Shown: piece by piece, positions 3,095 to 64,000 of the stretch
Layout of the letters: the number at the start of each line of letters is the position of its first letter
How positions within the stretch are numbered: position 1 is the stretch's first letter
From: Butyricicoccus sp. OM04-18BH
Lineage (GTDB): Bacteria; Bacillota; Clostridia; Oscillospirales; Butyricicoccaceae
Reading direction: 5' to 3'
Assembly: GCF_003481705.1 (NCBI RefSeq)
Contig: NZ_QULN01000008.1
Span: 45,706-109,705, forward strand
Length of the DNA stretch: 64,000 bases
Notes under the pieces: generated by a model
The model's database searches: none
The model's input: only the letters and a program-made list of their open reading frames with translations
Told to the model about the DNA's origin: nothing
Translations under genes and position numbers: made by a program

Positions 3095-4108
3095 ATGAAG
3101 GTTTTTGTACTGGGCACCGGCGGCTGGGGCATCGCGCTCGCGATGCTGCTGCATCAGAACGGCCATCAGGTGACCTCGTGGACCTATCAGCAGGCGGAAT
3201 GCGACCTGCTGCACCGCGAACGCTGCAATGAAAAGCTGCTGCCGGGCGTTGTCATCCCGGACGGCATCGAGATCACGACGGATATGTCGGGCGCAGCGGA
3301 TGCGGAGCTTGTTGTGCTTGCGGTGCCGTCGTTCGCGGTCGCGTCCACGGCGGAGAAGCTCGCAGGCATCGTAAAGCCGGAGACCGTACTCGTAAACGTC
3401 GGCAAGGGGCTGGACAGCAAACATGGCTACTGCCGCTTTTCCGAGACCATCACGCGCGCCGTGAACGGCAGAAATCCGGTCGTTGCGCTGACCGGTCCGA
3501 CGCACGCGGAGGAGGTCGCGCGCGGCATCCCGACCGCAATCGTTGCGGCGTCTGAGAGCCGCACGGCGGCGGAGCTGACGCAGGAAGCGTTCATGAACGA
3601 CACGAATTTCCGCGTTTACACCTCGTCCGACATCATCGGCTGCGAGCTCGGCGGCGCGTTCAAGAACATCATTGCGCTCGGCGCCGGCATTTCGGACGGT
3701 CTGGGTCTGGGCGATAACTCCAAGGCGGCGTTTATGACGCGCGGTCTGACCGAGATCGCTCGTCTGGGCATCAAGCTCGGCGCGAAGCAGGAGACCTTCG
3801 CCGGTCTGTCGGGCGTGGGCGACCTGATCGTTACCTGCTGCTCGATGCACTCGCGCAACCGCCGCGCCGGTATCCTGATCGGCAAGGGTGCGACCGCTGA
3901 GGAGGCCATGCGCGAGGTCGGCGCAACGGTCGAGGGCTACTACGCGACCGAGGCCGGCTATCACCTTGCTAAGCAGCAGGGCGTTTCCATGCCGATCACC
4001 GAGGCGATGTACGGCGTGCTGTACGGCGGCCTGTCCGCAAAGGACGGCATCAGGCTGCTGCTCGCGCGGCCGCGCAAGGGCGAGCACGAGGAAGTGTGGC
4101 TCGGCTGA
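3095..4108 (+). CDS. gpsA: glycerol-3-phosphate dehydrogenase [NAD(P)+]
   Basis: GpsA, 337 residues, reduces dihydroxyacetone phosphate to sn-glycerol-3-phosphate for phospholipid synthesis. The N-terminal Rossmann motif GTGGWGIA is at residues 7-14. The substrate/catalytic region includes ALTGPTHAEEVARG and GGAFKNIIALGAGI with its conserved lysine, then the GLTEIARLG and LSGVGDLIVTC motifs. It directly follows plsY, which consumes its product. A long series of hairpins follows the stop codon. Confidence 0.96.
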   Translation: MKVFVLGTGGWGIALAMLLHQNGHQVTSWTYQQAECDLLHRERCNEKLLPGVVIPDGIEITTDMSGAADAELVVLAVPSFAVASTAEKLAGIVKPETVLVNVGKGLDSKHGYCRFSETITRAVNGRNPVVALTGPTHAEEVARGIPTAIVAASESRTAAELTQEAFMNDTNFRVYTSSDIIGCELGGAFKNIIALGAGISDGLGLGDNSKAAFMTRGLTEIARLGIKLGAKQETFAGLSGVGDLIVTCCSMHSRNRRAGILIGKGATAEEAMREVGATVEGYYATEAGYHLAKQQGVSMPITEAMYGVLYGGLSAKDGIRLLLARPRKGEHEEVWLG

Positions 4109-4121
4109 GGCCTTCGCCTTC

Positions 4122-4373
4122 TAAGGGGGACGCTGTCCCCCTTAGATACGCCCCCGGTTCCTTGCGAAACCGGGGGCGATACCCCCCTCTCGTCCGCACG
4201 GCGGACGAGGCCGCGCCGCCGCGGCGCGGGCAGCGGGATAAAAGTCCGGCAGAGCTGGACTTTTATGGGGAATTTTATGCGGCCTGCTGCGGCAGGCCTG
4301 TCCGCCCTCCTTGCCGAAGGCAAGTTTGGGTGGAAATAGCGCACGCTTTGCGTGCGCGGCGTCTGGGAGGGCG
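4122..4373. repeat. array of consecutive perfect hairpins between gpsA and murB
   Basis: No credible gene lies in this stretch. At least seven hairpins follow one another: TAAGGGGGAC-GCT-GTCCCCCTTA (4122-4144), a GCCCCCGGTT stem (4150-4177), CTCGTCCGC-ACG-GCGGACGAG (4188-4208), a GC-only stem, an ATAAAAGTCC stem (about 4238-4267), GGCCTGCTGCGGCAGGCC, CTTGCCGAAGGCAAG, and GCGCACGCTTTGCGTGCGC. The last hairpin of the array is the terminator entered separately. It resembles a REP-type mosaic element or a highly folded 3' untranslated region. Confidence 0.6.
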
Positions 4374-4405
4374 CAAGCACTCGGGGAAACTCGGGTGCTT
4401 TTTTT
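4374..4405 (+). terminator. rho-independent terminator closing der-plsY-gpsA
   Basis: AAGCACTCG pairs with CGGGTGCTT around a short loop and runs into seven T residues. Confidence 0.75.
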
Positions 4406-4436
4406 AGTGTGCTGCGAAAATTTAAAAGTCTTGTAA

Positions 4437-4465
4437 TTGCACCAGGGCTGTGTTTTTGCTATAAT
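4437..4465 (+). promoter_or_regulatory. sigma-A-type promoter of murB
   Basis: TTGCAC (4437-4442), a 17-nt spacer and a consensus TATAAT (4460-4465). The transcript would carry a leader of about 115 bases before murB. Confidence 0.75.
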
Positions 4466-4585
4466 ATACTTTGTGCGAGTGCGTACTGCGTGTATCGCTC
4501 GTTTACTTCGAATTTTCTTCGGTATGCGCCGGCAGGAAGGGCATACTGTTTTTAAATATATCCTTATATCAGGAGGAATTTTATC

Positions 4586-5503
4586 ATGCTGAACAATATC
4601 AAGGGCTGCGCAGAGGCTCTGCGCGAAACCGCCCCGGAAATAGACATTCTGATCAACGAGCCGATGCGCCGCCACACGACCTTTTCCATCGGCGGCCCGG
4701 CCGACCTTTTCATCCTGCCCAAGACGCGCAGGGAGCTGATCGGCGCGCTCGAGGTGCTGCGTGCACAGGGCGTTCCGATGCTGCTGCTCGGCAACGGCTC
4801 GAACATTCTGGTCTCGGATGAGGGCGTGCGCGGCGCGGTCGTGTGCACCTCCGAGGTGGACGAGGTCCGCGTGGGCGACGACAACTCGCTGACGGCGGAG
4901 GCCGGCGCGCTCCTCAGCCGCATCGCACGCCGCGCACAGCGTGCCGGTCTGACCGGCGCGGAGTTTGCCGGCGGCATTCCGGGCAGTCTGGGCGGCGCGG
5001 TATTCATGAACGCCGGCGCATATGACGGCCAGATGGCCGGCATCGTCGAGAGCACGGAATATCTGGACGCAGAGGGCAATATCCACACGCTGCGCGGCGA
5101 GGAGCATGGCTTCGGCTACCGCCGCAGCATTTTCCGCGACCATCCGGACTGGACCGTGCTGCGCTCGGTCATCCGCCTTCAGCCGGGCGACTCGGCGGCT
5201 ATTCTGGACAAGATGAACGATTTTTCGCAGCGCCGCCGCGACAAGCAGCCGCTCAACTTCCCGTCGGCCGGCTCGACCTTCAAGCGCCCCGAGGGATATT
5301 TCGCCGGAAAGCTCATCGAGGACGCCGGACTCAAGGGAGCGTCCGTCGGCGCGGCGCAGGTTTCGGAAAAGCACGCAGGCTTTCTCATCAACCGGGGCGG
5401 CGCGACCTGCGACGATATGCTGCGCCTGATCGAGCTGGTGCAGGAGCGCGTTCGGGAGCAGTTCGGCGTCGAGCTGGAGTGCGAGGTGCGCATTGTAAGA
5501 TAA
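4586..5503 (+). CDS. murB: UDP-N-acetylenolpyruvoylglucosamine reductase
   Basis: MurB, 305 residues, an FAD enzyme that reduces UDP-GlcNAc-enolpyruvate to UDP-MurNAc in peptidoglycan synthesis. The FAD-binding part shows LLLGNGSNILVSDEG and EFAGGIPGSLGGAVFMNAGAYD. SAGSTFKRPEG contains the catalytic serine that protonates the intermediate, and the GASVGAAQVSEKHAGFLIN segment is characteristic. Start fixed by AGGAGG at 4571. It heads the murB-rapZ-whiA-dnaE run. Confidence 0.96.
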   Translation: MLNNIKGCAEALRETAPEIDILINEPMRRHTTFSIGGPADLFILPKTRRELIGALEVLRAQGVPMLLLGNGSNILVSDEGVRGAVVCTSEVDEVRVGDDNSLTAEAGALLSRIARRAQRAGLTGAEFAGGIPGSLGGAVFMNAGAYDGQMAGIVESTEYLDAEGNIHTLRGEEHGFGYRRSIFRDHPDWTVLRSVIRLQPGDSAAILDKMNDFSQRRRDKQPLNFPSAGSTFKRPEGYFAGKLIEDAGLKGASVGAAQVSEKHAGFLINRGGATCDDMLRLIELVQERVREQFGVELECEVRIVR

Positions 5504-25959: not shown

Positions 25960-26035
25960 GGACATTTAGCTCAGCTGGAAGAGCATCCGCTTGACGTGCG
26001 GAAGGTCAGCGGTTCGAACCCGTTAATGTCCACCA
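25960..26035 (+). tRNA. tRNA-Val (anticodon GAC)
   Basis: A complete 76-base cloverleaf: acceptor GGACATT/AATGTCC, D-arm, anticodon stem CCGC/GCGG around loop TTGACGT, T-loop TTCGAAC, and encoded CCA. Confidence 0.95.
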
Positions 26036-26039
26036 ACCT

Positions 26040-26115
26040 GGACATTTAGCTCAGCTGGAAGAGCATCCGCTTGACGTGCGGAAGGTCAGCGGTTCGAACC
26101 CGTTAATGTCCACCA
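26040..26115 (+). tRNA. tRNA-Val (anticodon GAC), second identical copy
   Basis: Identical to the preceding gene, at 80-base spacing with four bases between them. Its 3' end marks the left edge of the prophage and is the likely integration target. Confidence 0.95.
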
Positions 26116-26119
26116 GTTC

Positions 26120-26391: not shown

Positions 26392-26426
26392 GCAAAAGAC
26401 GCAGCTTAATCGGCTGCGTCTTTTGC
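26392..26426. terminator. hairpin overlapping the integrase stop codon
   Basis: GCAAAAGACGCAGC pairs perfectly with GCTGCGTCTTTTGC around a 7-base loop that includes the integrase stop codon. Confidence 0.6.
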
Positions 26427-27497
26427 TTCCTGCATTTTTCGGATGTCGTCCTCGGTAACGTGGTTGTAAATGTTGGCCGTCGTCGCTATGTCGCTGTGGC
26501 CCATCAGATACTGCGCCGTTTTCAGGTCGACGCCCTGACGTCGGAGATTGGAACAGTATGTGTGGCGCAGATAGTGCGGTGTGATGGACGGATCAAAGGC
26601 GTGCGTGATGATCTTGTTTCGGTAGATCTCGGCACCGGCGGCGCGATCACAGGCGCGGTGGAAGCTTGCCCACATCCGCCGCAGGCCGGTCGCGGTAAGC
26701 ATTCGGCCGTCCTTCCGGTGGAAAAAGTAGCGCGATTTTTTATCCAGCATCGCGGCGAGCTCGTCCGGCAGCGGCACGAAGCGCACGCCCGCGGCTGTCT
26801 TGGTATCCTTGAGCGTCGGCTGATTGCAGTCCGACTTATATTCCACCGAGTGCGAAATCTGGAGCAGGCCGTCCTTGATGTCCTGCCAGCCGATTGGCAC
26901 GGTCTCGCCGCGGCGCAGGCCGCAGTCCAGCATCAGCAGCACCCACGGCCCGGCGTAGTGATATTCCGCTACCTTGCGAACGATGTCCTCCTCCTCGTGC
27001 GTCAGCGAGCGGCGCTCTTTTTTGCGTGTGACCGGCATTTCGAGATTTCGGCAGGGCGAGGCCACGATCAGGCCGTTGATCTCCGCCTGCTCGAAGATCG
27101 CGCGGACGATGTAGCGCAGCTGCGCGGCCGTTCCTGCGCCGAGCGGCTTGCCGTCGTCCGTCCGCGCCTCGTTGAGCAGCTGCTGCACCTGGAAGGGCTT
27201 CACGTCCGCGATCGGGAGCGCGCCAAGCGTCGGAGCGATGCGCAGCCGGATGTGCGTTTCGTAATTGATGCGCTGGGACGCGCCGACGCGCGGCGCTTTG
27301 TAGGTGCGAAACCACTGCCACGCCCACTCCTCGACGGTCGTCTTGCCGGGCGCGCCGCCGCGCTCTGTCAGCGCGCGGACCTGCCGCACCTTCGCGTCAA
27401 AACGCACTTTGCTGTTGTCTTGGATGTACTTCCGGATCGGCTTGCCGTCCGGGCGGTGGCCGATGACGATGCTTGTTTTGTATTTGTAGTCGGGCAT
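26406..27497 (-). CDS. int: tyrosine-type site-specific integrase
   Basis: A 363-residue phage integrase. The N-terminal arm-binding region has YKYKTSIVIGHRPDGKPIRK, a core-binding SAM-like domain covers about 60-160, and the catalytic domain contains LDCGLRRGE (Arg I), ITPHYLRHTYCSNL (His-x-x-Arg), MGHSDIATTANIYNHVT (His and the nucleophilic Tyr). The start at 27,497 follows AGGAGAG; the longer upstream frame lacks homology. It stands next to the tRNA-Val genes and reads toward them, as expected at a phage left end. Confidence 0.95.
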   Translation of the reverse strand: MPDYKYKTSIVIGHRPDGKPIRKYIQDNSKVRFDAKVRQVRALTERGGAPGKTTVEEWAWQWFRTYKAPRVGASQRINYETHIRLRIAPTLGALPIADVKPFQVQQLLNEARTDDGKPLGAGTAAQLRYIVRAIFEQAEINGLIVASPCRNLEMPVTRKKERRSLTHEEEDIVRKVAEYHYAGPWVLLMLDCGLRRGETVPIGWQDIKDGLLQISHSVEYKSDCNQPTLKDTKTAAGVRFVPLPDELAAMLDKKSRYFFHRKDGRMLTATGLRRMWASFHRACDRAAGAEIYRNKIITHAFDPSITPHYLRHTYCSNLRRQGVDLKTAQYLMGHSDIATTANIYNHVTEDDIRKMQEAKDAAD

Positions 27498-27601
27498 GGT
27501 AATCTCTCCTAAAGTTCGGGAAATTTGCGGGAAAAGAACATTTGTTCGATTGCGCGATTGAAAATATAGCAGACCCAGAGGGTAGGGTCTGCTGTATTTT
27601 T

Positions 27602-28597
27602 TTATGCGCATTTTTTGCAGGGCGTGCGGCTGCCGACCTGATCCATAGTGACTGTGCGGGCATTCTTTCCGGCACAGCTTGCGGAACGGTGCCAACGCTT
27701 ACCGCTGGGCGTGATGTAAACGGTCTCCTGCTGCGGCGCAGCGGCTGCGGCCTGCTCGGCTGCGGCCTTTTCGGCTGCGGCTTTCTCAGCTGCGGCTTTT
27801 TCGGCGGCGGCCTGCTCGGCGGCGGCCTTCTCTGCGGCTGCTTTCTCCTCGGCGGCCTTCTGCTCGGCGGCGGCCTTTTCGGCTGCGGCTTTTTCGGCGG
27901 CGGCCTTCTCTGCGGCTGCTTTCTCCTCGGCGGCCTTCTGCTCGGCTGCTGCCTTTTCGGCTGCTGCCTTTTCGGCTGCTGCCTTTTCAGCGGCGGCCTG
28001 TTCAGCTGCGGCTTGCTGCTCGGCCTGAGCGGTCTGCTCGGCGGTGGCGTCGGCGACCGGATCGGGCGAAGCCTTGCCGCCGACGGCGAGCAAGACGAAG
28101 AGGACGGCTACGACAACCATCCAGCGGCAGCGCGGCGGCTTGTCGCCATTCCACGCGATGCGAGTGCGGCGGTAGTACAGGATAAAGCAGCCGAGGGCGG
28201 TGCCTAAGAAGCCACCGACGACGGAGACAAGCGTCAGCGTCAGGCTCATCGCTATCAGCAGGACGGCGAGGACTTTAAGCAGGGTCAGCATACCCTTCGG
28301 CGTCCGGGGCGGGCGCGGCGGCTGCGGATCGATGGGCGGAAGATCGACGGTCGGCGTATGCTCCGGCGCGGTCTGGTCATGCTTATCGGTAGACGAGGCC
28401 GCGCCGCCGCCAATCTTGCCGGTCTTGGTGTAGGACAGGCCGGTGCCCGGCAGGCCGACCGTCTTAGTAACGCGGCCCTTACTGTTGACCGACACGCGGG
28501 CACCCTTGACGCCAGCGGAGATGCCGACTGACTTCTTGCCGATATTGAGCCGCACGCCCGGTGCGATTTTTACAGATTTGCGAAATCTGAATCCCAT
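27602..28597 (-). CDS. DUF4236 protein with AAAEK repeats and Cys-containing C-terminus
   Basis: A 331-residue protein. Residues 1-60 are a DUF4236 domain (MGFRFRKSVKIAPGVRLNIG, GLPGTGLSYT). Two hydrophobic segments span about 100-170. About 110 residues of AAAEK/AAAEQKAAEE repeats predict a long helix. The C-terminus (YITPSGKRWHRSASCAGK to CKKCA) resembles small Cys/His domains found at the ends of secreted or nuclease-like proteins. It lies in the lysogeny cluster and may be expressed from the prophage; a membrane or surface role is a guess. Confidence 0.7.
   Translation of the reverse strand: MGFRFRKSVKIAPGVRLNIGKKSVGISAGVKGARVSVNSKGRVTKTVGLPGTGLSYTKTGKIGGGAASSTDKHDQTAPEHTPTVDLPPIDPQPPRPPRTPKGMLTLLKVLAVLLIAMSLTLTLVSVVGGFLGTALGCFILYYRRTRIAWNGDKPPRCRWMVVVAVLFVLLAVGGKASPDPVADATAEQTAQAEQQAAAEQAAAEKAAAEKAAAEKAAAEQKAAEEKAAAEKAAAEKAAAEKAAAEQKAAEEKAAAEKAAAEQAAAEKAAAEKAAAEKAAAEQAAAAAPQQETVYITPSGKRWHRSASCAGKNARTVTMDQVGSRTPCKKCA
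27823..27978. repeat. two tandem 78-bp repeats in the AAAEK coding region
   Basis: The segment starting CGGCCTTCTCTGCGGCTGCT recurs at 27,901 after 78 bases (26 codons). Shorter 15-base units flank it. It is a likely site of length change. Confidence 0.65.
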
Positions 28598-36947: not shown

Positions 36948-37294
36948 TACTGGAACTGACCCGTCAGGACGTTATCGCCCTGACGAACGAAAGCAAGCGC
37001 AAGGCCGTGCTGTCTGGCTGGCAGAACTGGGGCATCTGGCACAAGGCGCCTGAGATCGGGCTTAGCGTGTACCGGCTCGACCTGCCGGACGGCAGCTTTT
37101 TCACGGCCAGCTGGTATGAGGGCGACGATTTCTTTCCGGGCGGCGGTACGCATAACGTCAACCGTCCGCGTTACAACTTCGGCGACAAGGGCGGCAAACT
37201 GAAAGCTGGGAACAAGGCCGAGAGCCTGCTGACGGATAAACTCAAGGAGCTGCGGAAGGAGCTGCTGGAACGGGAGAGCAACGGCCATGCTTGA
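36944..37294 (+). CDS. hypothetical phage protein
   Basis: A 116-residue protein (MILELTRQDVIALTNESKRK, GGGTHNVNRPRYNFGDKGGK) with mixed strands and a basic helical C-terminus. ATG 36,944 follows GGGAGGG and overlaps the preceding stop. Unrecognised. Confidence 0.55.
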   Translation: MILELTRQDVIALTNESKRKAVLSGWQNWGIWHKAPEIGLSVYRLDLPDGSFFTASWYEGDDFFPGGGTHNVNRPRYNFGDKGGKLKAGNKAESLLTDKLKELRKELLERESNGHA

Positions 37295-38006
37295 AACCAA
37301 CCATTGCTACTGCATGGATTGCATGGAGGGAATGGCGCAGTTCCAAGACGGCTGTTTCGATCTCGCTGTGGTAGACCCTCCGTACTTTAGCGGACCGGAA
37401 CGCCGCCACTATTACGGCTCCAACGTAAGCCGAACCAGAGTGCGGCGCAATTATTACCCTGTATCAGCAGCATGGAAAGTGCCGGGAAAGGCATACTTTG
37501 ACGAATTGCGGCGAGTGTCAAAGCACTACATCATTTGGGGCTGCAATTATTTCAGCTATGATTTTGCGCCCGGCCGGATTGTGTGGGACAAATGCAACCA
37601 AAGCTCGAGTTTCTCGGATTGCGAGATTGCCGCCACCGACCTGTTTACCAGCGTGCGTCTATTTCGGTATATGTGGAGCGGTATGCTGCAGGGGAAAAGC
37701 GTTGCGGAGGGGCACATTCAGCAAGGGAATAAGGCACTCAATGAGGTGCGTATTCACCCGACACAGAAGCCGGTTGCGCTGTATGACTGGCTGTTTCAGC
37801 GTTATGCGTCGCCGGGTATGCGCGTGCTGGATACCCATTTAGGGAGCGGCAGCAGCCGGATCGCGGCATATAAGGCTGGACTGGATTTCACAGGTTTTGA
37901 AATCGACCGGACATATTTCGATGCTGCCGAAAAGCGGTTTAGCAAATTTGCAGATCAAATCAGTTTGTTTTATGGGGAAGGAGCGGACACATATGAAAAC
38001 CGATGA
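37287..38006 (+). CDS. DNA N6-adenine/N4-cytosine methyltransferase
   Basis: A 239-residue beta-class amino-methyltransferase: the catalytic DPPYFSG comes first (near residue 30) and the AdoMet site LDTHLGSGSSRIAA follows near the C-terminus with FTGFEID. No restriction partner is adjacent. An orphan phage methylase like this may protect phage DNA from host restriction. The target sequence cannot be read from here. Confidence 0.85.
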   Translation: MLETNHCYCMDCMEGMAQFQDGCFDLAVVDPPYFSGPERRHYYGSNVSRTRVRRNYYPVSAAWKVPGKAYFDELRRVSKHYIIWGCNYFSYDFAPGRIVWDKCNQSSSFSDCEIAATDLFTSVRLFRYMWSGMLQGKSVAEGHIQQGNKALNEVRIHPTQKPVALYDWLFQRYASPGMRVLDTHLGSGSSRIAAYKAGLDFTGFEIDRTYFDAAEKRFSKFADQISLFYGEGADTYENR

Positions 38007-38172
38007 ACTTATCGAAGCCCTCAGAAGGCTGAAAGTCCAGACCGGCTCTCTGGCCTGCCTCGGCTGCGGGCACGAGCATAACTGCGGCACGGGCGGCTGT
38101 GCGATCATCCGTGAGGCGGCCGACAAGCTGCAGGCGGTGGCAGAGTTTTGCGAGAGGAGAGGGCAAAAATGA
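37993..38172 (+). CDS. small Cys-rich phage protein
   Basis: A 59-residue protein with a possible zinc site (CLGCGHEHNCGTGGC) between helices; a common small protein type in phages of Clostridia. It overlaps the methylase end and the next gene. Confidence 0.6.
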   Translation: MKTDELIEALRRLKVQTGSLACLGCGHEHNCGTGGCAIIREAADKLQAVAEFCERRGQK

Positions 38173-56899: not shown

Positions 56900-59096
56900 A
56901 AACAAAGTTATCAACACAGTCCTGAACCTGCGCGATAACATGTCGGGCGGCCTCATTCAGGCCGCGAAGAACGCGAAGAAGAGCGGCGCGAAGATCGATG
57001 ACAGCATGATGAACGCGACGCGAAAAGTCGTTAAGTTTAAGAACGACTCGATCAAGGCTTTGCAGAGCTGGTCGAAGAAGAGCGTCGTGGCGGCGGGCGC
57101 GGCGGTGAGCGGTCTCGCGGCGGCCTTTGTGGCGCTCGACGGCGCGACCGAGGAGTACCGCGTCGCGCAGGGCAAGCTGAACGCCGGCTTTCAGGCGGCG
57201 GGCTTTGAGGCCGAAACTGCGCGCAAGAGCTATCGCAATTTCTACGCGATCCTCGGTGATACGGACACCGCCACCGAGGCAAGCCAGCTGCTCGCGAACA
57301 TGGCGAAAGACGAGGAAGAAGTGACTAAGTGGGCGCGCATCGCGGCCGGCGTGCACGGCACGTTCGGCGACTCGCTGCCGATCGAGGGCCTCGTAGAGTC
57401 CGCCAACGAGACGGCGCGGACCGGTCAGATCACGGGCGTTTTTGCGGACGCGATCAACTGGGCGACCAAGGAGGGCGAGCACTTCGGCGTCGCGCTCAAG
57501 GCCAACACCAAGGCAAACAAGGACTGGAACAAGGCAGTCAAGGCCGCGTCGAGCGCGGAGGACTACTTCAACCTCGCGCTGCAGGACTGCGCGGACGAAA
57601 GCGCCCGTCAGAAGCTTATCGTCGACACGCTCTCGGCAAGCTACGACACCGCCGCGACGAGCTTTTACAAGAACAATCAGCAGGTCATCGACGCCAGACG
57701 CAATCAGGCGACGCTCGACGAGACGCTCGCGAAGGTCGGCGACACGTCCGCGAACGTGAAAAACCGGCTGTGGGAGCTCGCCGGTGCGGCGGACGACGGC
57801 TCGGTCCGCGCCGGGTCGGCGCTCGACTGGATGCAGACAAAGGCCGACGCCTTCGGGGCGTGGGTGGAGGGGCTGGACCTGTCCGCCTTCCAGGCGCAGG
57901 TCGACCAGAAATTCCGCCAGTCGCTGCATAAGGCCGGAGAGGCGCTGCAGTGGGTGCGCGACAACTCGGACACGCTGATCGGCGTGCTGAAAAAGCTCGC
58001 GGTCGCGTGGGGTGCCGGCAAGGTACTCGCCTTCGAGAGCGCGGCCATCACGACGATACAGACTATCGGCGGATTTATCAAGACGCTGCGTGCGCTCGAC
58101 GGCATCGGCAAGCTCAGAGGCTTTGCAGACGGCACGATGAGGCTGGTCACAAATGCAGTCGAGTGGACGGTAGACACCGGTGCAATCATTGGCAACAAGG
58201 TCGCGCTGCTCGCGCACAAGGCGGTCGGCGGCGTAGTATGGCTCGCAAAGCAGATCGCGTCGCTCGGCGCGGCAAGCGCGGCGTGGATACACAACACCGT
58301 CGTCATCGGCGCGAACAAGGTCGCGCTGCTGGCGCACAAGGCGGCCGGCGGCGTGGTATGGCTCGCAAAGCAGGTCGTGGCGCTCGGCACGGCAAGCGCG
58401 GCGTGGATTCACAACACCGCAGTCATCGTCGCGAACAAGGTCAGCCTTGTTGCGAACAAGGTCGGCCTTGTCGCGAGCACGGTCGCGTCCGGCGTGGCCG
58501 CCGGTGCGACTGCCGCTCTGACGGCGGCACAGTGGGCGCTCAATGCCGCGTTTGTGGCGACGCCGATCGGCTGGGTCGTGCTCGGACTCGCGGCTATCGT
58601 CGCAGCCGGTGTGGCGCTGTACAAGAACTGGGACACGGTGAAGGCGAAGGCCGGGGAGCTGGGGACCAAGGTGAAAACCGTGTTCGGCGGCGTCCGGGAC
58701 ACCATCACGGGCGCGTTTGATGCGGCGAAGAAGAAGGTCAAGGGCTTTTTCTCGTGGCTCGACGACAAGATCAGCTCGATCCCCCTGCTCGGGGACATCT
58801 ACAGCGGCGGCAAGTCGGCGCTCAGCTGGATCGGGGGCAAGATCTCCGGGCACGCGATGGGCACGCCTTACTTCTCCGGCGGGCTGACGCGCGTCAACGA
58901 GCGCGGCGGCGAGGTCATGCGCCTGCCGAGCGGCACGCAGATCATCCCGCATGATGTGTCTGTCAAGGCGGCGGGCGGCCGCGGCGTGACGGTGAACGTG
59001 ACCATTCAGGGCAACGTCATCGGCAACCGCGAGTACGCCGAGGAGATGGGCGATTATGTCGCGCGGCGCGTGCTCGCGGCGTGCGGAAATGCGTAA
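56886..59096 (+). CDS. tape measure protein
   Basis: A 736-residue tail length protein. The N-terminus is helical (NLRDNMSGGLIQAAKNAKKS); it contains long alanine-rich helices, a tandem 40-residue duplication (NKVALLAHKA, GGVVWLAKQ, ASAAWIHNT) and hydrophobic segments (AALTAAQWALNAAFVATPIG, VVLGLAAIVAAGVALY) expected of a membrane-passing tape. The C-terminus has GTPYFSGGLTRVNERGGE, a common end motif. Confidence 0.92.
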   Translation: MRRAKNKVINTVLNLRDNMSGGLIQAAKNAKKSGAKIDDSMMNATRKVVKFKNDSIKALQSWSKKSVVAAGAAVSGLAAAFVALDGATEEYRVAQGKLNAGFQAAGFEAETARKSYRNFYAILGDTDTATEASQLLANMAKDEEEVTKWARIAAGVHGTFGDSLPIEGLVESANETARTGQITGVFADAINWATKEGEHFGVALKANTKANKDWNKAVKAASSAEDYFNLALQDCADESARQKLIVDTLSASYDTAATSFYKNNQQVIDARRNQATLDETLAKVGDTSANVKNRLWELAGAADDGSVRAGSALDWMQTKADAFGAWVEGLDLSAFQAQVDQKFRQSLHKAGEALQWVRDNSDTLIGVLKKLAVAWGAGKVLAFESAAITTIQTIGGFIKTLRALDGIGKLRGFADGTMRLVTNAVEWTVDTGAIIGNKVALLAHKAVGGVVWLAKQIASLGAASAAWIHNTVVIGANKVALLAHKAAGGVVWLAKQVVALGTASAAWIHNTAVIVANKVSLVANKVGLVASTVASGVAAGATAALTAAQWALNAAFVATPIGWVVLGLAAIVAAGVALYKNWDTVKAKAGELGTKVKTVFGGVRDTITGAFDAAKKKVKGFFSWLDDKISSIPLLGDIYSGGKSALSWIGGKISGHAMGTPYFSGGLTRVNERGGEVMRLPSGTQIIPHDVSVKAAGGRGVTVNVTIQGNVIGNREYAEEMGDYVARRVLAACGNA
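58194..58433. repeat. two tandem 120-bp repeats in the tape measure gene
   Basis: The unit starting AACAAGGTCGCGCTGCT at 58,194 recurs at 58,314, and a partial third begins at 58,434. Each encodes 40 residues. Confidence 0.8.
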
Positions 59097-59809: not shown

Positions 59810-60262
59810 ATGGCAGAGGTTTTTCCCGTGATCCCGTCCGGCATCCCGGCGCAGACTGCGGCGGACATCGGGCGGGCACCGGATTTTTTGTTCGACGAGA
59901 CCGGGCGCTCAGGCGCTTTTCAGCTCGTGGACGGGGCGGTGCAGGAGGTTTCGGGCGCGGCCGCGGTCCGCCGGTGGCTCGAGCTGATGCTCAGGCAGAA
60001 GCCGGGCGCTGTGCCCATCTACCGCACGGACGGAGAGACGCAGCCGGGCGTGGAGGCGGCAAGCCTCGACCGGCGCGCGCCGGAAGGGTGGGCGTTTGCC
60101 GAGATCGAGCAGGATATCCGCGACACGGCGGCGTTCTGCCCGGCAATCCGCACGGTGGACGGCTTCCGCTTTACGCGGCTGCGGCACGGCGTGGAGGTGC
60201 GGTTTACGGCGCATCTCCACACGGACGAAACTCTGGAGGTGACGACGAATGTCGGCGAATGA
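59810..60262 (+). CDS. baseplate wedge protein (DUF2634/XkdS-like)
   Basis: A 150-residue gp25-like protein: FDETGRSGAFQLVDGAVQEV, WLELMLRQKPGAVPIYRTDG. It forms part of the baseplate wedge. It overlaps the baseplate J gene. Confidence 0.78.
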   Translation: MAEVFPVIPSGIPAQTAADIGRAPDFLFDETGRSGAFQLVDGAVQEVSGAAAVRRWLELMLRQKPGAVPIYRTDGETQPGVEAASLDRRAPEGWAFAEIEQDIRDTAAFCPAIRTVDGFRFTRLRHGVEVRFTAHLHTDETLEVTTNVGE

Positions 60263-61307
60263 GGTTTTAGAGGCGCTGCTCGACGCGATGCCGGACAGCT
60301 ACCAGAAAACCATCGGCTTTCCGACCTACGACCTGCTGGCGGCGGCAAGCCTGCGGCTGGCGGAGACGGACGCGGTGATCGAGGACGCGAGGGCGGCGCT
60401 CGACCCGGAAAACCTGACGGGCGGCGAGCTCGACCGGTACATCTACCCGCGCAGCGGCATCGCGCGCAAGGCTGCGACCTTCGCGGGCGGCGTGCTGACG
60501 GTCAAGGGTACGGGCACGATCGAGCAGGGCACGCTGTTCGAGAGCGCGGGCGGCGTGCAGTTCGCGGCGGCGGAAACCGTCGCCATCGACGGCACGGGCG
60601 AGGTGCCGGTGACCTGCCGCGCGGACGGCACGGCAGGAAATCTGCCCGCGCATTCGGTGACGCAGATGCCGGTGACGGTGCAGGGCATCACGGGGTGCGA
60701 CAACGAGGCCGAGATGAGCGGCGGCTACGCCGAGGAGACGGACGCGGAGTATTACGCGCGGTTTCTGCTCAAGATGCGCACGCCTGCTACGTCGGGCAAC
60801 ATCTACCACTATGAGCAGTGGGCGCTCGAGTGCGCGGGCGTCGGGCACGTCAGGGTTTTCCCGCGCGTGCAGGGCGTGAACACGGTGGACGTCGTGATCG
60901 CGGACAGCACAGGACAGCCGGCGGGCGAGGAGCTCGTCGCGGCGGTGCAGGCGTACATCGACCCCGAGAGCGAAGGAGCCGGAAGGGGGCAGGCGCCGAT
61001 CGGCGCGCAGTGCTTTGTGTCGGCGGCGGCGGAGAAGAAGATCGCCATTGCCTGCAAGGTGTTCAAATCGAACACCGCGGAGGCGGACAGTGTGACGGCG
61101 GCAGTCAAAGCGGCGGTCGCGGCGTATCTCGCCGGGACGGTGTTCGTGCAGGACTACGTCTCTTATGCGCAGATCGCGGCGGCTATCCTGTCGGCCGACG
61201 GCGTTGTGGACTTTGAGGGCCTGACGGTCGGCGGCGGCACGGCCAACATCGCGGTCGGCGAGCGCGAGTGCGCGGTGCTGGGCGAGGTGACGATCCGCTA
61301 TGCTTGA
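60249..61307 (+). CDS. baseplate J protein
   Basis: A 352-residue gpJ-type wedge protein: FPTYDLLAAASLRLAETDAV, YIYPRSGIARKAATFAGGVL, AGNLPAHSVTQMPVTVQGI, YYARFLLKMRTPATSGNIYH. It contains palindrome variant E in the KVFKSNT codons. It overlaps the next gene by eight bases. Confidence 0.93.
   Translation: MSANEVLEALLDAMPDSYQKTIGFPTYDLLAAASLRLAETDAVIEDARAALDPENLTGGELDRYIYPRSGIARKAATFAGGVLTVKGTGTIEQGTLFESAGGVQFAAAETVAIDGTGEVPVTCRADGTAGNLPAHSVTQMPVTVQGITGCDNEAEMSGGYAEETDAEYYARFLLKMRTPATSGNIYHYEQWALECAGVGHVRVFPRVQGVNTVDVVIADSTGQPAGEELVAAVQAYIDPESEGAGRGQAPIGAQCFVSAAAEKKIAIACKVFKSNTAEADSVTAAVKAAVAAYLAGTVFVQDYVSYAQIAAAILSADGVVDFEGLTVGGGTANIAVGERECAVLGEVTIRYA
61059..61077. repeat. dispersed palindrome, variant E, inside baseplate J
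   Basis: GGTGTTCAAATCGAACACC keeps both 7-base arms of the repeat and differs from it at three central positions. Confidence 0.65.
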
Positions 61308-61827
61308 TATCATTAGGCAGCTGCCGTCGGCGTACCGCGGCGACAGGTGGGTGCGCGACCTGCTCGGCTGTATCGCCGCGCTCGACGAAAAGCAGCGCGA
61401 GAGTGCGCTCGAGACGGCGGCGCAGCTCTTCCCGGACGCGATGACGTGGCTCCTCGAAACCGAGGAGCGCATCGCCGGGCTGGAGGGCAATGCGGCGCTG
61501 ACGCTCGAGGAGCGGCGGACCGCTCTGCAGGCGCGGTGGCGCGCCGCGGGCAAGTGCGATGTGGAGCTCATCCAGCGCGTGTGCGACTCGTGGAAGAACG
61601 GCGAGATTTCTGTCGGCTTTGCCGAGGGCGTGATCGTGCTGACGTTCGTCGGCGCGTATGGCGTGCCCGAGGCGGCCGAGCTCGCGGCACTGCAGGACGC
61701 GGTGGAGCACACGATCCCGTGCCATCTGGCGGTGAGCTATCTCTACCGCTATCTGCTCGTGCGCGAGGTCGGGGCGATGACGGTGGCGGAGCTGCAGGGG
61801 CACACGATGCATGATTTTGCGTTTTAG
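61300..61827 (+). CDS. tail protein (DUF2313/YmfQ-like)
   Basis: A 175-residue protein: DIIRQLPSAYRGDRWVRDLL, LTLEERRTALQARWRAAGKC and the C-terminal PEAAELAALQDAVEHTIPCH match the DUF2313 baseplate family that follows baseplate J and precedes fibres. Confidence 0.87.
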   Translation: MLDIIRQLPSAYRGDRWVRDLLGCIAALDEKQRESALETAAQLFPDAMTWLLETEERIAGLEGNAALTLEERRTALQARWRAAGKCDVELIQRVCDSWKNGEISVGFAEGVIVLTFVGAYGVPEAAELAALQDAVEHTIPCHLAVSYLYRYLLVREVGAMTVAELQGHTMHDFAF

Positions 61828-61838
61828 AAGGTGAGAAA

Positions 61839-62666
61839 ATGAGTTTGAAAACAAAGCTGCTCGAGCTTTTTAAATATGAGCCGGACAAGGACGGCGCGCA
61901 GACGTTCAACATCAAGTCGGCGCTCAATGACAACTGGGATAAGATCGAGGCGTGGGCGCAGAGCGTGAAAACCGCGCTCGCGGGGCTCGTGCCGACGAGC
62001 CGGACGGTGAACGGGAAAACGCTGAGCGCGGATGTGACGCTGACGGGCGATGACATTGCGATGGGTGCCGATGATGCGGAGAACTTAAGGACGGCTATGG
62101 CAAAGCGCCTTAGGGCGGATGGCGATGTCACCCGTCAAGGCTTAATAGGATCGACTGTGGATAATACATATTTTGCATCTGTTATTGGTGCCAGTGGTGG
62201 TGGTTTTTTTGAATGCTACAAGGACTATACACAGAGAACTCAGCTCGTTATTAGCCCGCCGAACGATACGCCCCTTTCAGCGCGAATTGCTCAGACAGAC
62301 GATGGCACGCATTGGACATCAAAATATTTGGCAACCTGTGAAACGCCCGAGGTGCATTCATTGCCTTTAAATATTGCAGACGATATAAACACAAGCTGTT
62401 ATTCACGTGATCAATTCGGACGAGTATTTGTAAGCATTCGAGTACAGCCAACTACGCATTGGACCGAAATGAAAACAATCGGCACTATGCCGGAAGGTTT
62501 TCGGCCCGATCGGGATATTGTTGTCCCAGCACTCGTGCAAAGATACGGCAATCCTTTTCACGCAGAACAGCTATTCATTACTTCGACCGGCGCAATTATT
62601 ACTCAAGGCGATTATTCGGACGTGGATTTAATCTTTGCTCAGTTGACATATCCAGCGGCGACTTAA
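61839..62666 (+). CDS. tail fibre protein, expressed form
   Basis: A 275-residue fibre. The N-terminal 80 residues attach to the baseplate (LLELFKYEPDKDGAQTFNIK, KTLSADVTLTGDDIAMGADD) and are GC-rich. After the crossover repeat at 62,085 the sequence becomes AT-rich and encodes a receptor-binding domain (HSLPLNIADDINTSCYSRDQ, TMPEGFRPDRDIVVPAL). The stop codon overlaps the stop of the opposite-strand cassette. This C-terminus is predicted to be exchangeable. Confidence 0.85.
   Translation: MSLKTKLLELFKYEPDKDGAQTFNIKSALNDNWDKIEAWAQSVKTALAGLVPTSRTVNGKTLSADVTLTGDDIAMGADDAENLRTAMAKRLRADGDVTRQGLIGSTVDNTYFASVIGASGGGFFECYKDYTQRTQLVISPPNDTPLSARIAQTDDGTHWTSKYLATCETPEVHSLPLNIADDINTSCYSRDQFGRVFVSIRVQPTTHWTEMKTIGTMPEGFRPDRDIVVPALVQRYGNPFHAEQLFITSTGAIITQGDYSDVDLIFAQLTYPAAT
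62085..62108 (+). repeat. inverted repeat site 1 of the invertible fibre segment
   Basis: 24 bp starting TTAAGGACGGCTATGG, in frame in the fibre gene (L-R-T-A-M-A-K-R). Two mismatches to site 2. Confidence 0.85.
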
Positions 62667-63274
62667 CTCATAAACGCAAATGTTGCGAAGAAATAATCGT
62701 CGGAGGTAATTGCTACACCAGGTTGATCGGTAAGATCAACGAACAAATTACCATCTGATGTTGCCTTAATCGTCACAAGCCGACGCGAACCCTTGAAGAT
62801 TGCCGGTACTTCCAGATCGGCAGCCGGGCGAAAACCCTCTGGCAATGTTGCCAACGCTGCGGACACTCGAAAACTTTGTGTTGTTCGAGCGGCAATGCTG
62901 ACGATAACAATACTCTCTTGGGTCTTGTAGTAACGACAGGTCGCGTCAAATTTCGTCCAGCCGTCTGCAAGCGGCAGCTGATGCGTTTCCGGCGCAATAC
63001 AATCCGCAACCTTTCGCCATGGTCCACCCCATTTACCGCTTCCGGTGCTGGCCCGATGCATTACATCGTCAGAAAAAATCAACAGTGCGCGATCATTACC
63101 TGGAAAATCACCTGTTAATAAGCCTCGCCAATACAGCGGATATGGCACACCTTTAGCAGTCCTTGGCGTCAGCATAAATGTACCGCCTGCGGTCTGTGCA
63201 GAGGCCCATTCCTGCAGGTTTTCGGGCGCAATTACGCCGTACTCCACATCGCGCTTTGCCGTAGGCGTCCTTAA
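62663..63274 (-). pseudogene. silent alternative tail fibre C-terminus
   Basis: An open frame on the minus strand from the repeat (LRTPTAKRDVEYGVIAPENL) to the shared centre. HQLPLADGWTKFDATCRYYK and LATLPEGFRPAADLEVPAIF match the expressed C-terminus in order, so the two are homologous receptor-binding domains. There is no start codon or ribosome site at its beginning; the open frame only continues by chance into the neighbouring region. Inversion at sites 1 and 2 would fuse it in frame to the fibre N-terminus. Not broken, but silent in this orientation. Confidence 0.8.
63251..63274 (-). repeat. inverted repeat site 2 of the invertible fibre segment
   Basis: 24 bp on the minus strand starting TTAAGGACGCCTACGG; two mismatches to site 1, opposite orientation. 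Confidence 0.85.
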
Positions 63275-63296
63275 AATTTGAGAAAGGATGATGAAA

Positions 63297-63731
63297 ATGA
63301 ACAATGAAAAGCACTGCAGCGTCATCGACGCTGAGGGCAGGCACGTGACTTACGTGCTCGTAAAAATCCGTGACAAGCCGCTGGAGGATGGCGGCACGGA
63401 GCAGGTCGAGGAGGTGCAGAACTACACCTTAAAGGACGGCGAGCAGCTTGTCGATGCCTCGCCGCCGGTTATGCGGACACACGCCGGCAGCACTGGCTTT
63501 ATTTCGCCGGTCTGGGACGGCAGTCAGTGGGCTGAGACCGCCGCGGCCGACGAGATCGCCGCCTGGGAGCAGGAGCACCCGGCGCCGGAGATCAAGCCCA
63601 GTCCGAAATCTAACGCAGAACTGGAGCAGGAAAATAAGCTGCTGAAAGCACAACTTAACGCCGCGACCGAACGCAGTGATTTTATTGAGGACTGCATTGC
63701 GGAGATGGCGATGCAGGTTTACGCAGAATAA
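63297..63731 (+). CDS. fibre-associated phage protein with C-terminal coiled coil
   Basis: A 144-residue protein (NNEKHCSVIDAEGRHVTYVL, GFISPVWDGSQWAETAAADE) whose C-terminus is a coiled coil (NAELEQENKLLKAQLNAAT). ATG 63,297 leaves ten bases from AGAAAGG; 63,288 and 63,291 are in frame but close. Its position after the fibre suggests a fibre chaperone or accessory structural part. Confidence 0.6.
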   Translation: MNNEKHCSVIDAEGRHVTYVLVKIRDKPLEDGGTEQVEEVQNYTLKDGEQLVDASPPVMRTHAGSTGFISPVWDGSQWAETAAADEIAAWEQEHPAPEIKPSPKSNAELEQENKLLKAQLNAATERSDFIEDCIAEMAMQVYAE

Positions 63732-63766
63732 TGAACATTTTTAGACGTTTAGAAAGGTTGGTAATT

Positions 63767-63931
63767 ATGATGGCTATGTTTTTTGCCCAGAGAGTAATCC
63801 TTGGCAAGACGGAGTTCGATGCTGTGCCCAAAGCACTCAAAAAGCAGGTAGCGGAGATCCTGATCGACTCCGGCCTGCCGGAGATGGTACCGGCAGAGTT
63901 CGGCGGTACGAAGGACGTAGAAGCCGCGTAA
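63767..63931 (+). CDS. small CD1375-like phage protein
   Basis: A 54-residue protein (MFFAQRVILGKTEFDAVPKA, SGLPEMVPAEFGG) of the short XkdX/CD1375 type found after tail fibres. ATG 63,767 has AAAGG nine bases upstream; an ATG at 63,731 would add twelve residues. Confidence 0.6.
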   Translation: MMAMFFAQRVILGKTEFDAVPKALKKQVAEILIDSGLPEMVPAEFGGTKDVEAA

Positions 63932-64000
63932 ACGGCTGCACGGGCGCCTACGGCAAAGCGACCCTTGAAGCAGTACCCAAAGACGCTGGATGTGCACAAA
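63932..64000 (+). pseudogene. start of a third, start-less fibre cassette
   Basis: An open frame without a start codon that runs off the window. In the frame used by the fibre it reads RAPTAKRPLKQYPKTLDVHK, and PTAKR matches the silent cassette. It begins at the third copy of the crossover repeat, in the same orientation as site 1. Confidence 0.5.
63944..63960 (+). repeat. crossover repeat site 3 (core)
   Basis: GCGCCTACGGCAAAGCG matches the core of site 2 at 16 of 17 positions, in inverted orientation to it. Confidence 0.65.

Follow-up and report, generated by a model that had tools for sequence, protein, structure and literature searches.

The window analyzed here, meaning the whole stretch of 64 kb, closes inside a phage tail fiber locus. 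The fiber gene (fiber A) is preceded by Baseplate_J and Mu Gp48-like genes, with weak PHROG tail matches, which is the usual place of a tail fiber. A direct repeat of about 150 bp (offset, 120 bp; 87.7% identical) lies at 58194-58467, inside a likely tape-measure gene. The features from the fiber start to the end of the window are as follows:

61839..62666, + strand: tail fiber A (ORF), with a constant base (approximately residues 1 to 89) and tip LRADGDV
62085..62108, + strand: fiber-side inverted repeat, with its 19-bp core at 62089-62107
62099..62107, + strand: GGCAAAGCG, putative crossover interval on the fiber side, from the mismatch map of the window versus L003 and the arm comparison
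62108..62666, + strand: tip LRADGDV, joined to the fiber; predicted C-terminal receptor-binding-head fold
62663..63251, − strand: tip DVEYGV, silent in the window; the joined tip of fiber B in L003 and of base A in P0244
63251..63274, − strand: distal inverted repeat, with its 19-bp core at 63252-63270
63252..63260, − strand: GGCAAAGCG, putative crossover interval on the distal side, from the same mismatch map and arm comparison
63288..63731, + strand: 147-aa protein between the tip pair and the third site; weak PHROG tail-fiber match (phrog_1766; E, 0.0011)
63731..63931, + strand: 66-aa CD1375-like protein, under the Pfam and NCBIfam cutoffs
63942..63960, + strand: third 19-bp core, opening a start-less frame
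63961..64000, + strand: beginning of tip PLKQYP, truncated where the window stops, from its match to L004 3242-3184

An initial annotation of this DNA had described an invertible fiber end, and the structural elements that it listed are present. The 24-bp repeat TTAAGGACGGCTATGGCAAAGCGC at 62085-62108 recurs in inverted orientation at 63251-63274, with two mismatches (pair I1), and the 19-bp core GGRCGSCTAYGGCAAAGCG occurs at 62089 (+), 63252 (−), and 63942 (+), its only places in the 64 kb at no more than one mismatch to the degenerate core. Two open frames, 61839-62666 (+) and 62663-63325 (−), run tail to tail, so that their stop codons overlap at 62663-62666; the two tips that they encode are homologous, with 26% identity. 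The reading phase is common to both repeats, giving L-R-T-A-M-A-K-R at the fiber arm and L-R-T-P-T-A-K-R at the other. The segment is also more AT rich than the fiber base, as annotated: GC is 0.46 and 0.51 in the two tips, 0.57 in the base, and 0.61 in the window. A chance repeat was ruled out, as the pattern GCNTANGGCAAAGCG occurs at two places in the window and in none of 100 shuffles, with three core places in 64 kb.

The invariant residues of a five-row tip alignment include PE-x-H, LPL, and PEG-x-RP. In a predicted structure, the C-terminal domain of tip LRADGDV superposes on the heads of lactococcal and Listeria phage receptor-binding proteins (RBPs); only residues 167 to 275 were used in this comparison because the base and the middle of the tip were modeled with low confidence. 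The modeled tip head resembles receptor-binding heads, and the tips may decide which host cell is bound.

The prophage that carries this locus (prophage A) is also represented by IMGVR_UViG_2833286976_000002 (G001/G002; 37526 bp), which is identical to window 26406-63931 and ends 10 bp before the third core. A sister locus lies on a 7356-bp contig from a second isolate (IMGVR_UViG_2833196337_000006, here L004), whose fiber base is 99.7% identical to window 60074-62114, with 6 gap positions. Two features mark the other end of the prophage in the window:

26067..26119, no strand: probable left attachment site of prophage A; its 53 bp recur unchanged at the far end of L004 (6778-6830)
26406..27695, − strand: prophage A's own tyrosine integrase; 24.7% identity over 288 aa to P0029, a relative of the L004 fiber-locus recombinase

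Since the end of L004 carries the 53 bp of window 26067-26119, prophage A probably runs from approximately 26.07 kb to some kilobases past position 64000. Window 25987-26035 and 26067-26119 are neighboring copies of the L004 far-end sequence, downstream of an elongation factor P-like gene, and perhaps represent a duplicated attachment site. Beside the integrase, at 27602-28597, is a gene for a protein with long alanine-lysine-glutamate repeats (AAAEKAAAEK). Relative to the window, L004 has small indels that break several frames, including that of its recombinase; these are sequencing errors or real.

The tip pair of L004 differs from that of the window, with LGYNDN joined to the fiber and PLKQYP silent. 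The last 59 bp of the window, made up of the third core and 40 further bases, match the silent PLKQYP tip (L004 3242-3184) at 98.3%, in line with the earlier suggestion of more than two variants.

A second prophage carries the same tips. Prophage B, represented by IMGVR_UViG_2833196337_000005 (L003), has its own baseplate genes and a different fiber start. Window 62088-63273 matches L003 at 99.4%, and all 7 mismatches of this 1186-bp match lie in the arms; window 62099-63260 has no mismatch (1162 bp; 100% identical) and stands in the opposite orientation relative to the fiber, with DVEYGV as the joined tip in prophage B and LRADGDV in prophage A. The other L003-window matches (E, 1e-5) are 663 bp at 95.6%, 312 bp at 72%, and approximately 100 bp of stalk at approximately 72 to 73%. 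The 663-bp stretch is window 37458-38120, at the far end of the L003 contig, and overlaps a DNA methyltransferase-like gene at 37287-38006; prophages A and B therefore share at least one more piece. A prophage B in the isolate of the window's prophage (L009) has tip LINYGTEF, truncated where its contig stops. The two B prophages are 7.7% divergent over the 5.6 kb that were compared, and the lack of any difference between the tip pairs of A and B therefore suggests a recent origin.

L003 extends for 41 bases past the distal core, and over this distance it is unrelated to the window. These 41 bases match L004 immediately upstream of the start codon of its recombinase, and the L003 contig ends there; prophage B therefore probably has a copy of the recombinase beside its tips.

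All four base-tip combinations exist in public sequences: base A with LRADGDV (window), base A with DVEYGV (P0244; 99.0%), base B with DVEYGV (L003), and base B with LRADGDV (P0123; 100%). Both tips are thus found joined to the same fiber base, which supports the proposal that inversion would swap the fiber end in frame. An assembly or cross-sample artifact could in principle have joined one segment to two fibers, given that both isolates come from one database and that contigs end near the sites (L003 starts 41 bp ahead of its site, L009 stops 49 bp past its site, and G001 ends short of the third core as described above), but the joints recur in independent entries (P0123 comprises 21 contigs, P0244 carries the reciprocal joint, and many other tips are shared) and the arms retain side-specific bases; we regard such an artifact as very improbable.

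The arms indicate where exchange would fall. Identity between A and B ends at core position 10/11 on both sides, and the crossover therefore maps to GGCAAAGCG (positions 11 to 19). We compared eight arms, several of which represent the same locus in two isolates and hence are not all independent: all fiber-side arms (4/4) have G at position 6 and T at position 10, and all distal or third-site arms (4/4) have C at both, whatever the tip, and the tips diverge directly after position 19. As positions 6 and 10 follow the side and divergence sets in after position 19, exchange within GGCAAAGCG would fit both limits. Core position 3 is not strictly tied to side, since in the distal arm it differs between the window and L004; the position may be polymorphic, or some events may have involved a wider exchange.

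To place these joints among a larger set of fibers, we took the best 120 of 692 matches to fiber A and the best 120 of 825 matches to fiber B in two protein searches, giving 224 distinct relatives; a search with base C (below) as the query gave no new record. With the three local fibers, the set came to 227, of which 197 have the AMAK joint. Most of the other 30 are tips with a predicted start at or after the joint, and 3 are a base with another joint. A base of at least 60 aa is present in 195 of the 224 relatives, and its joint is AMAK in 192, PTAK in 2 (P0264 and P0328), and ATAK in 1 (P0316). Two loci with related fiber bases, L055 and L032, show no such joint in the frames translated. After one fiber was dropped (tip of <120 aa; 196 left) and five with other bases were left out, 191 fibers fell into base families A (MSLKTKLL; n = 78), B (MASKTTNY; n = 93), and C (MSFTAPKF; n = 20), with a mean identity between families of 12 to 36% and at most 53%.

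The same tips recur behind these dissimilar bases. At 95% tip identity (91 clusters), 22 of the 30 multimember clusters stand behind more than one base family, compared with 23.1 (standard deviation [SD], 2.0) for random labels; the corresponding counts are 18 of 27 at 98% (random, 20.3; SD, 2.0) and 10 of 22 at exact identity, the last being below the random-label mean of 14.8 (SD, 2.1). Because the choice of queries, the best-120 lists, and dereplication bias it, we use the random-label test as support only. Tips and bases appear to assort almost freely, with some recent linkage. Among the relatives listed, PLKQYP is joined to base A at 94.1% and to base B at 88.6%; the best tip identities behind base C are 53% (to LRADGDV) and 61% (to DVEYGV); and the LGYNDN tip, besides L004 itself, has no close relative (best, 47.4% behind A and 43.9% behind B).

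The residues just before the joint are of two types, ADIKMP and DIAMGA, and both occur in all three families (57/21 in A, 68/23 in B, and 12/7 in C), which indicates that stalks recombine too and that homologous recombination is also at work. The tips of P0159 and P0175 look mosaic, with the front of one tip type and the C-terminal head of another. It could therefore be argued that inversion operates only within a single prophage and that tips are shared between prophages by ordinary homologous recombination, the site being merely a conserved joint. The free combination of stalk types with bases, the likeness of the A and B stalks over the 100 bp before the joint, and the mosaic tips would all suit that explanation. 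What it leaves unaccounted for are the limits of the shared segment: the identical 1162 bp stops at core position 10/11 on both sides, and past the distal core homologous recombination has nothing to act on, because the loci share no sequence in the L003 bases there. We consider it unlikely as the whole account of the sharing.

No recombinase adjoins the fiber in the window, as the initial annotation had stated; the prophage's own tyrosine integrase lies at its far end. Such an absence had been named as a point against inversion, and the related prophage in L004 has a tyrosine recombinase just downstream of its tip pair (3935-4899), followed by a holin and an amidase. This recombinase, a protein different from the integrase of prophage A, has SAM-like and PF00589 domains in two frames, the frame being broken in this assembly, and has intact relatives. 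P0029 (321 aa; 430 contigs; source name, Agathobaculum butyriciproducens) is 99.5% identical to it over the last 205 residues, and P0052 (source name, unclassified Butyricicoccus) comprises 741 contigs; these matches indicate the likely host. Of 7832 relatives found, 120 were listed, and 113 of these have a length of 321 aa and 0 to 7 differences from P0029 (median, 2). The protein is XerD-like (1a0p; E, 1.5e-26), and we take R179, K203, H269, R272, H295, and Y304 to be its likely catalytic residues, with positions from motifs and the assignment from general knowledge. Exact peptides of the recombinase matched only L004 among viral contigs and only a distant acidobacterial gene among genome contigs, in a search from which near relatives of the window may be excluded. 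The locus recombinase is of the tyrosine kind, and no serine recombinase was found in the four records searched, all of them fragments.

Relatives of this enzyme adjoin other switching loci. We examined the loci of 7 of the 15 plasmid matches listed and 3 of the 20 phage matches listed. In four of the seven plasmid matches (L068, L069, L071, and L074), the recombinase adjoins a type I restriction locus with hsdS in both orientations; the remaining three are from Lysinibacillus (phage lysis genes nearby), Methanosphaera (no hsd nearby), and an unannotated Fusobacterium record. One of the three phage matches, L065 (MT835621.1, 3996-13027; filed as Bacteriophage sp.), contains hsdM, opposed hsdS, and hsdR, with a recombinase 40% identical to that of the fiber locus, and identities across these five hsdS loci are 36 to 41%. 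In L067 (PP197244.1, Terrisporobacter phage TPELB_ph1, 4914-11321), a second tyrosine recombinase lies between a tail-side gene and a holin, the same position as in L004, and another integrase is also present. In L066, the recombinase lies between an amidase and large unannotated genes that are tail-like by reading, although Pfam gave no match for the two tested. Neither L066 nor L067 has a clear tip pair, and neither a clear tip pair nor a site was found in L037 or L067, where the related recombinase is near tail genes. PADLOC gave no match for four recombinases.

The 19-bp pattern was also sought elsewhere in IMG/VR, where it occurs in 20 stretches. Four are loci of the two isolates studied (L004, L009, L013, and L015); the other 16 were set aside as chance, as none, when translated across the site, reads as a fiber plus a tip, with L012 ending too soon after the site to be judged. 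Window 60200-64000 had no match in the phage collection.

It is also conceivable that the sites are real and are served in trans by another host or phage recombinase, while the L004 enzyme does other work, such as integration. PHROGs labels such proteins integrase, the gene is absent from the window, and relatives also stand where no tip pair was found (L037 and L067). However, separate integrases occur in the prophage A and B records (G002 and G005), the gene lies at the end of the L004 tip locus, where its neighbors are fiber tips, holin, and amidase rather than hsdS, the sequence upstream of the gene recurs next to the prophage B distal site, and its relatives stand in hsdS inversion loci. 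We judge a trans-acting enzyme to be decidedly improbable, and an L004-type recombinase would act on these sites.

We therefore favor, with a probability of roughly three in four, a tail fiber shufflon worked by a tyrosine recombinase, in which tip pairs may also be exchanged between prophages as one pool; both inversion and exchange are deduced here from assembled sequences. Each tip would begin at a 19-bp site, GGRCGSCTAYGGCAAAGCG, and be read in frame from it. Most likely, the recombinase would pair the two inverted cores, exchange strands within GGCAAAGCG, and flip the tip pair, joining a different receptor-binding head to the constant fiber base. Because other prophages of the same host end their fiber base with the same site, tip pairs could pass between prophages by exchange at both sites, as in recombinase-mediated cassette exchange. 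Recombination between inverted sites does not excise the pair that they enclose, and transfer would therefore need two exchanges, one per end. The exchanging loci would share one cell, either as two prophages or as a prophage and an infecting or induced phage. The third core stands in direct orientation to the fiber core, so transfer might instead proceed through an excised circle, as at tvr.

Such an inversion system would be a further phage RBP shufflon of the Rin kind, described from prophages of Bifidobacterium (PMC6109161) and Eggerthella lenta (PMC8778435), where a tyrosine invertase acts on a phage RBP. According to those reports, Rin likewise combines a constant RBP start with alternative C-terminal pieces, a short repeat before each, and a tyrosine recombinase separate from the integrase. 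Here, too, a constant N-terminal piece and alternative C-terminal pieces are joined in frame at a repeated site; the separate tyrosine recombinase is found at the locus in L004 rather than in the window, and the alternative orientations are seen between assembled sequences rather than within one culture. Rin, compared by description, differs in its repeats, which are 11 bp (TTCCCTAACCC) and 8 bp, as opposed to a 19-bp core of another sequence here, and the same pieces on unrelated prophages are not reported for Rin in the text available from PMC6109161 and PMC8778435.

Among tyrosine recombinases that shuffle hsdS, PsrA of pneumococcus inverts hsdS in vitro (PMC7096588), and that of tvr does its shuffling by way of circles (PMC6265443). 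Related enzymes adjoin opposed hsdS genes, whereas the target here is a tail fiber; PsrA was compared by description. The R64 shufflon shares multisite C-terminal switching by a tyrosine recombinase. Its sfx site is described as a 7-bp core with a 12-bp conserved arm and a variable other arm, and Rci as having an additional C-terminal domain (PMC11852207); by analogy, 19 conserved bases are followed by divergence in the eight arms compared here. In contrast, the R64 target is the pilus tip PilV, and P0029, which ends 17 residues after the likely catalytic tyrosine, is without an Rci-like C-terminal extension. Gin of Mu and Cin of P1 are serine recombinases. Together with Min of p15B, also a serine recombinase, they invert fiber ends and change specificity, as summarized in PMC6109161. 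The recombinase of the L004 locus is of the tyrosine kind, unlike those of Mu and P1. This and the tips common to unrelated prophages go beyond the initial annotation.

What appears to be new is the tip pool common to unrelated prophages, the exchange limits within 9 bp, and the kinship with hsdS recombinases; no earlier report of this was found in the open-access literature searched. A broader reading, on which we are evenly divided, is that the tips form one library maintained jointly by unrelated prophages of a single gut species. A recombinase of the hsdS-shuffling kind that hardly varies would then trade whole pairs between phages sharing a cell, with the crossover confined to 9 bp or less, and host specificity would evolve as a property of the prophage community and not of a single phage. 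Judging from the recombinase, the host is probably Agathobaculum, a gut butyrate producer. The host range of a phage is usually taken as a trait of its lineage, and the boundaries found here point to site-specific exchange of whole tips between unrelated prophages, which may take place between phages that share a cell. Now that a site is defined and a candidate enzyme is at hand, the jumping of tips between unrelated phages becomes testable, as does the question of whether a cell with several prophages offers its phages a wider choice of tips to display. The finding also ties the shuffling of phage tips to enzymes that shuffle restriction specificity.
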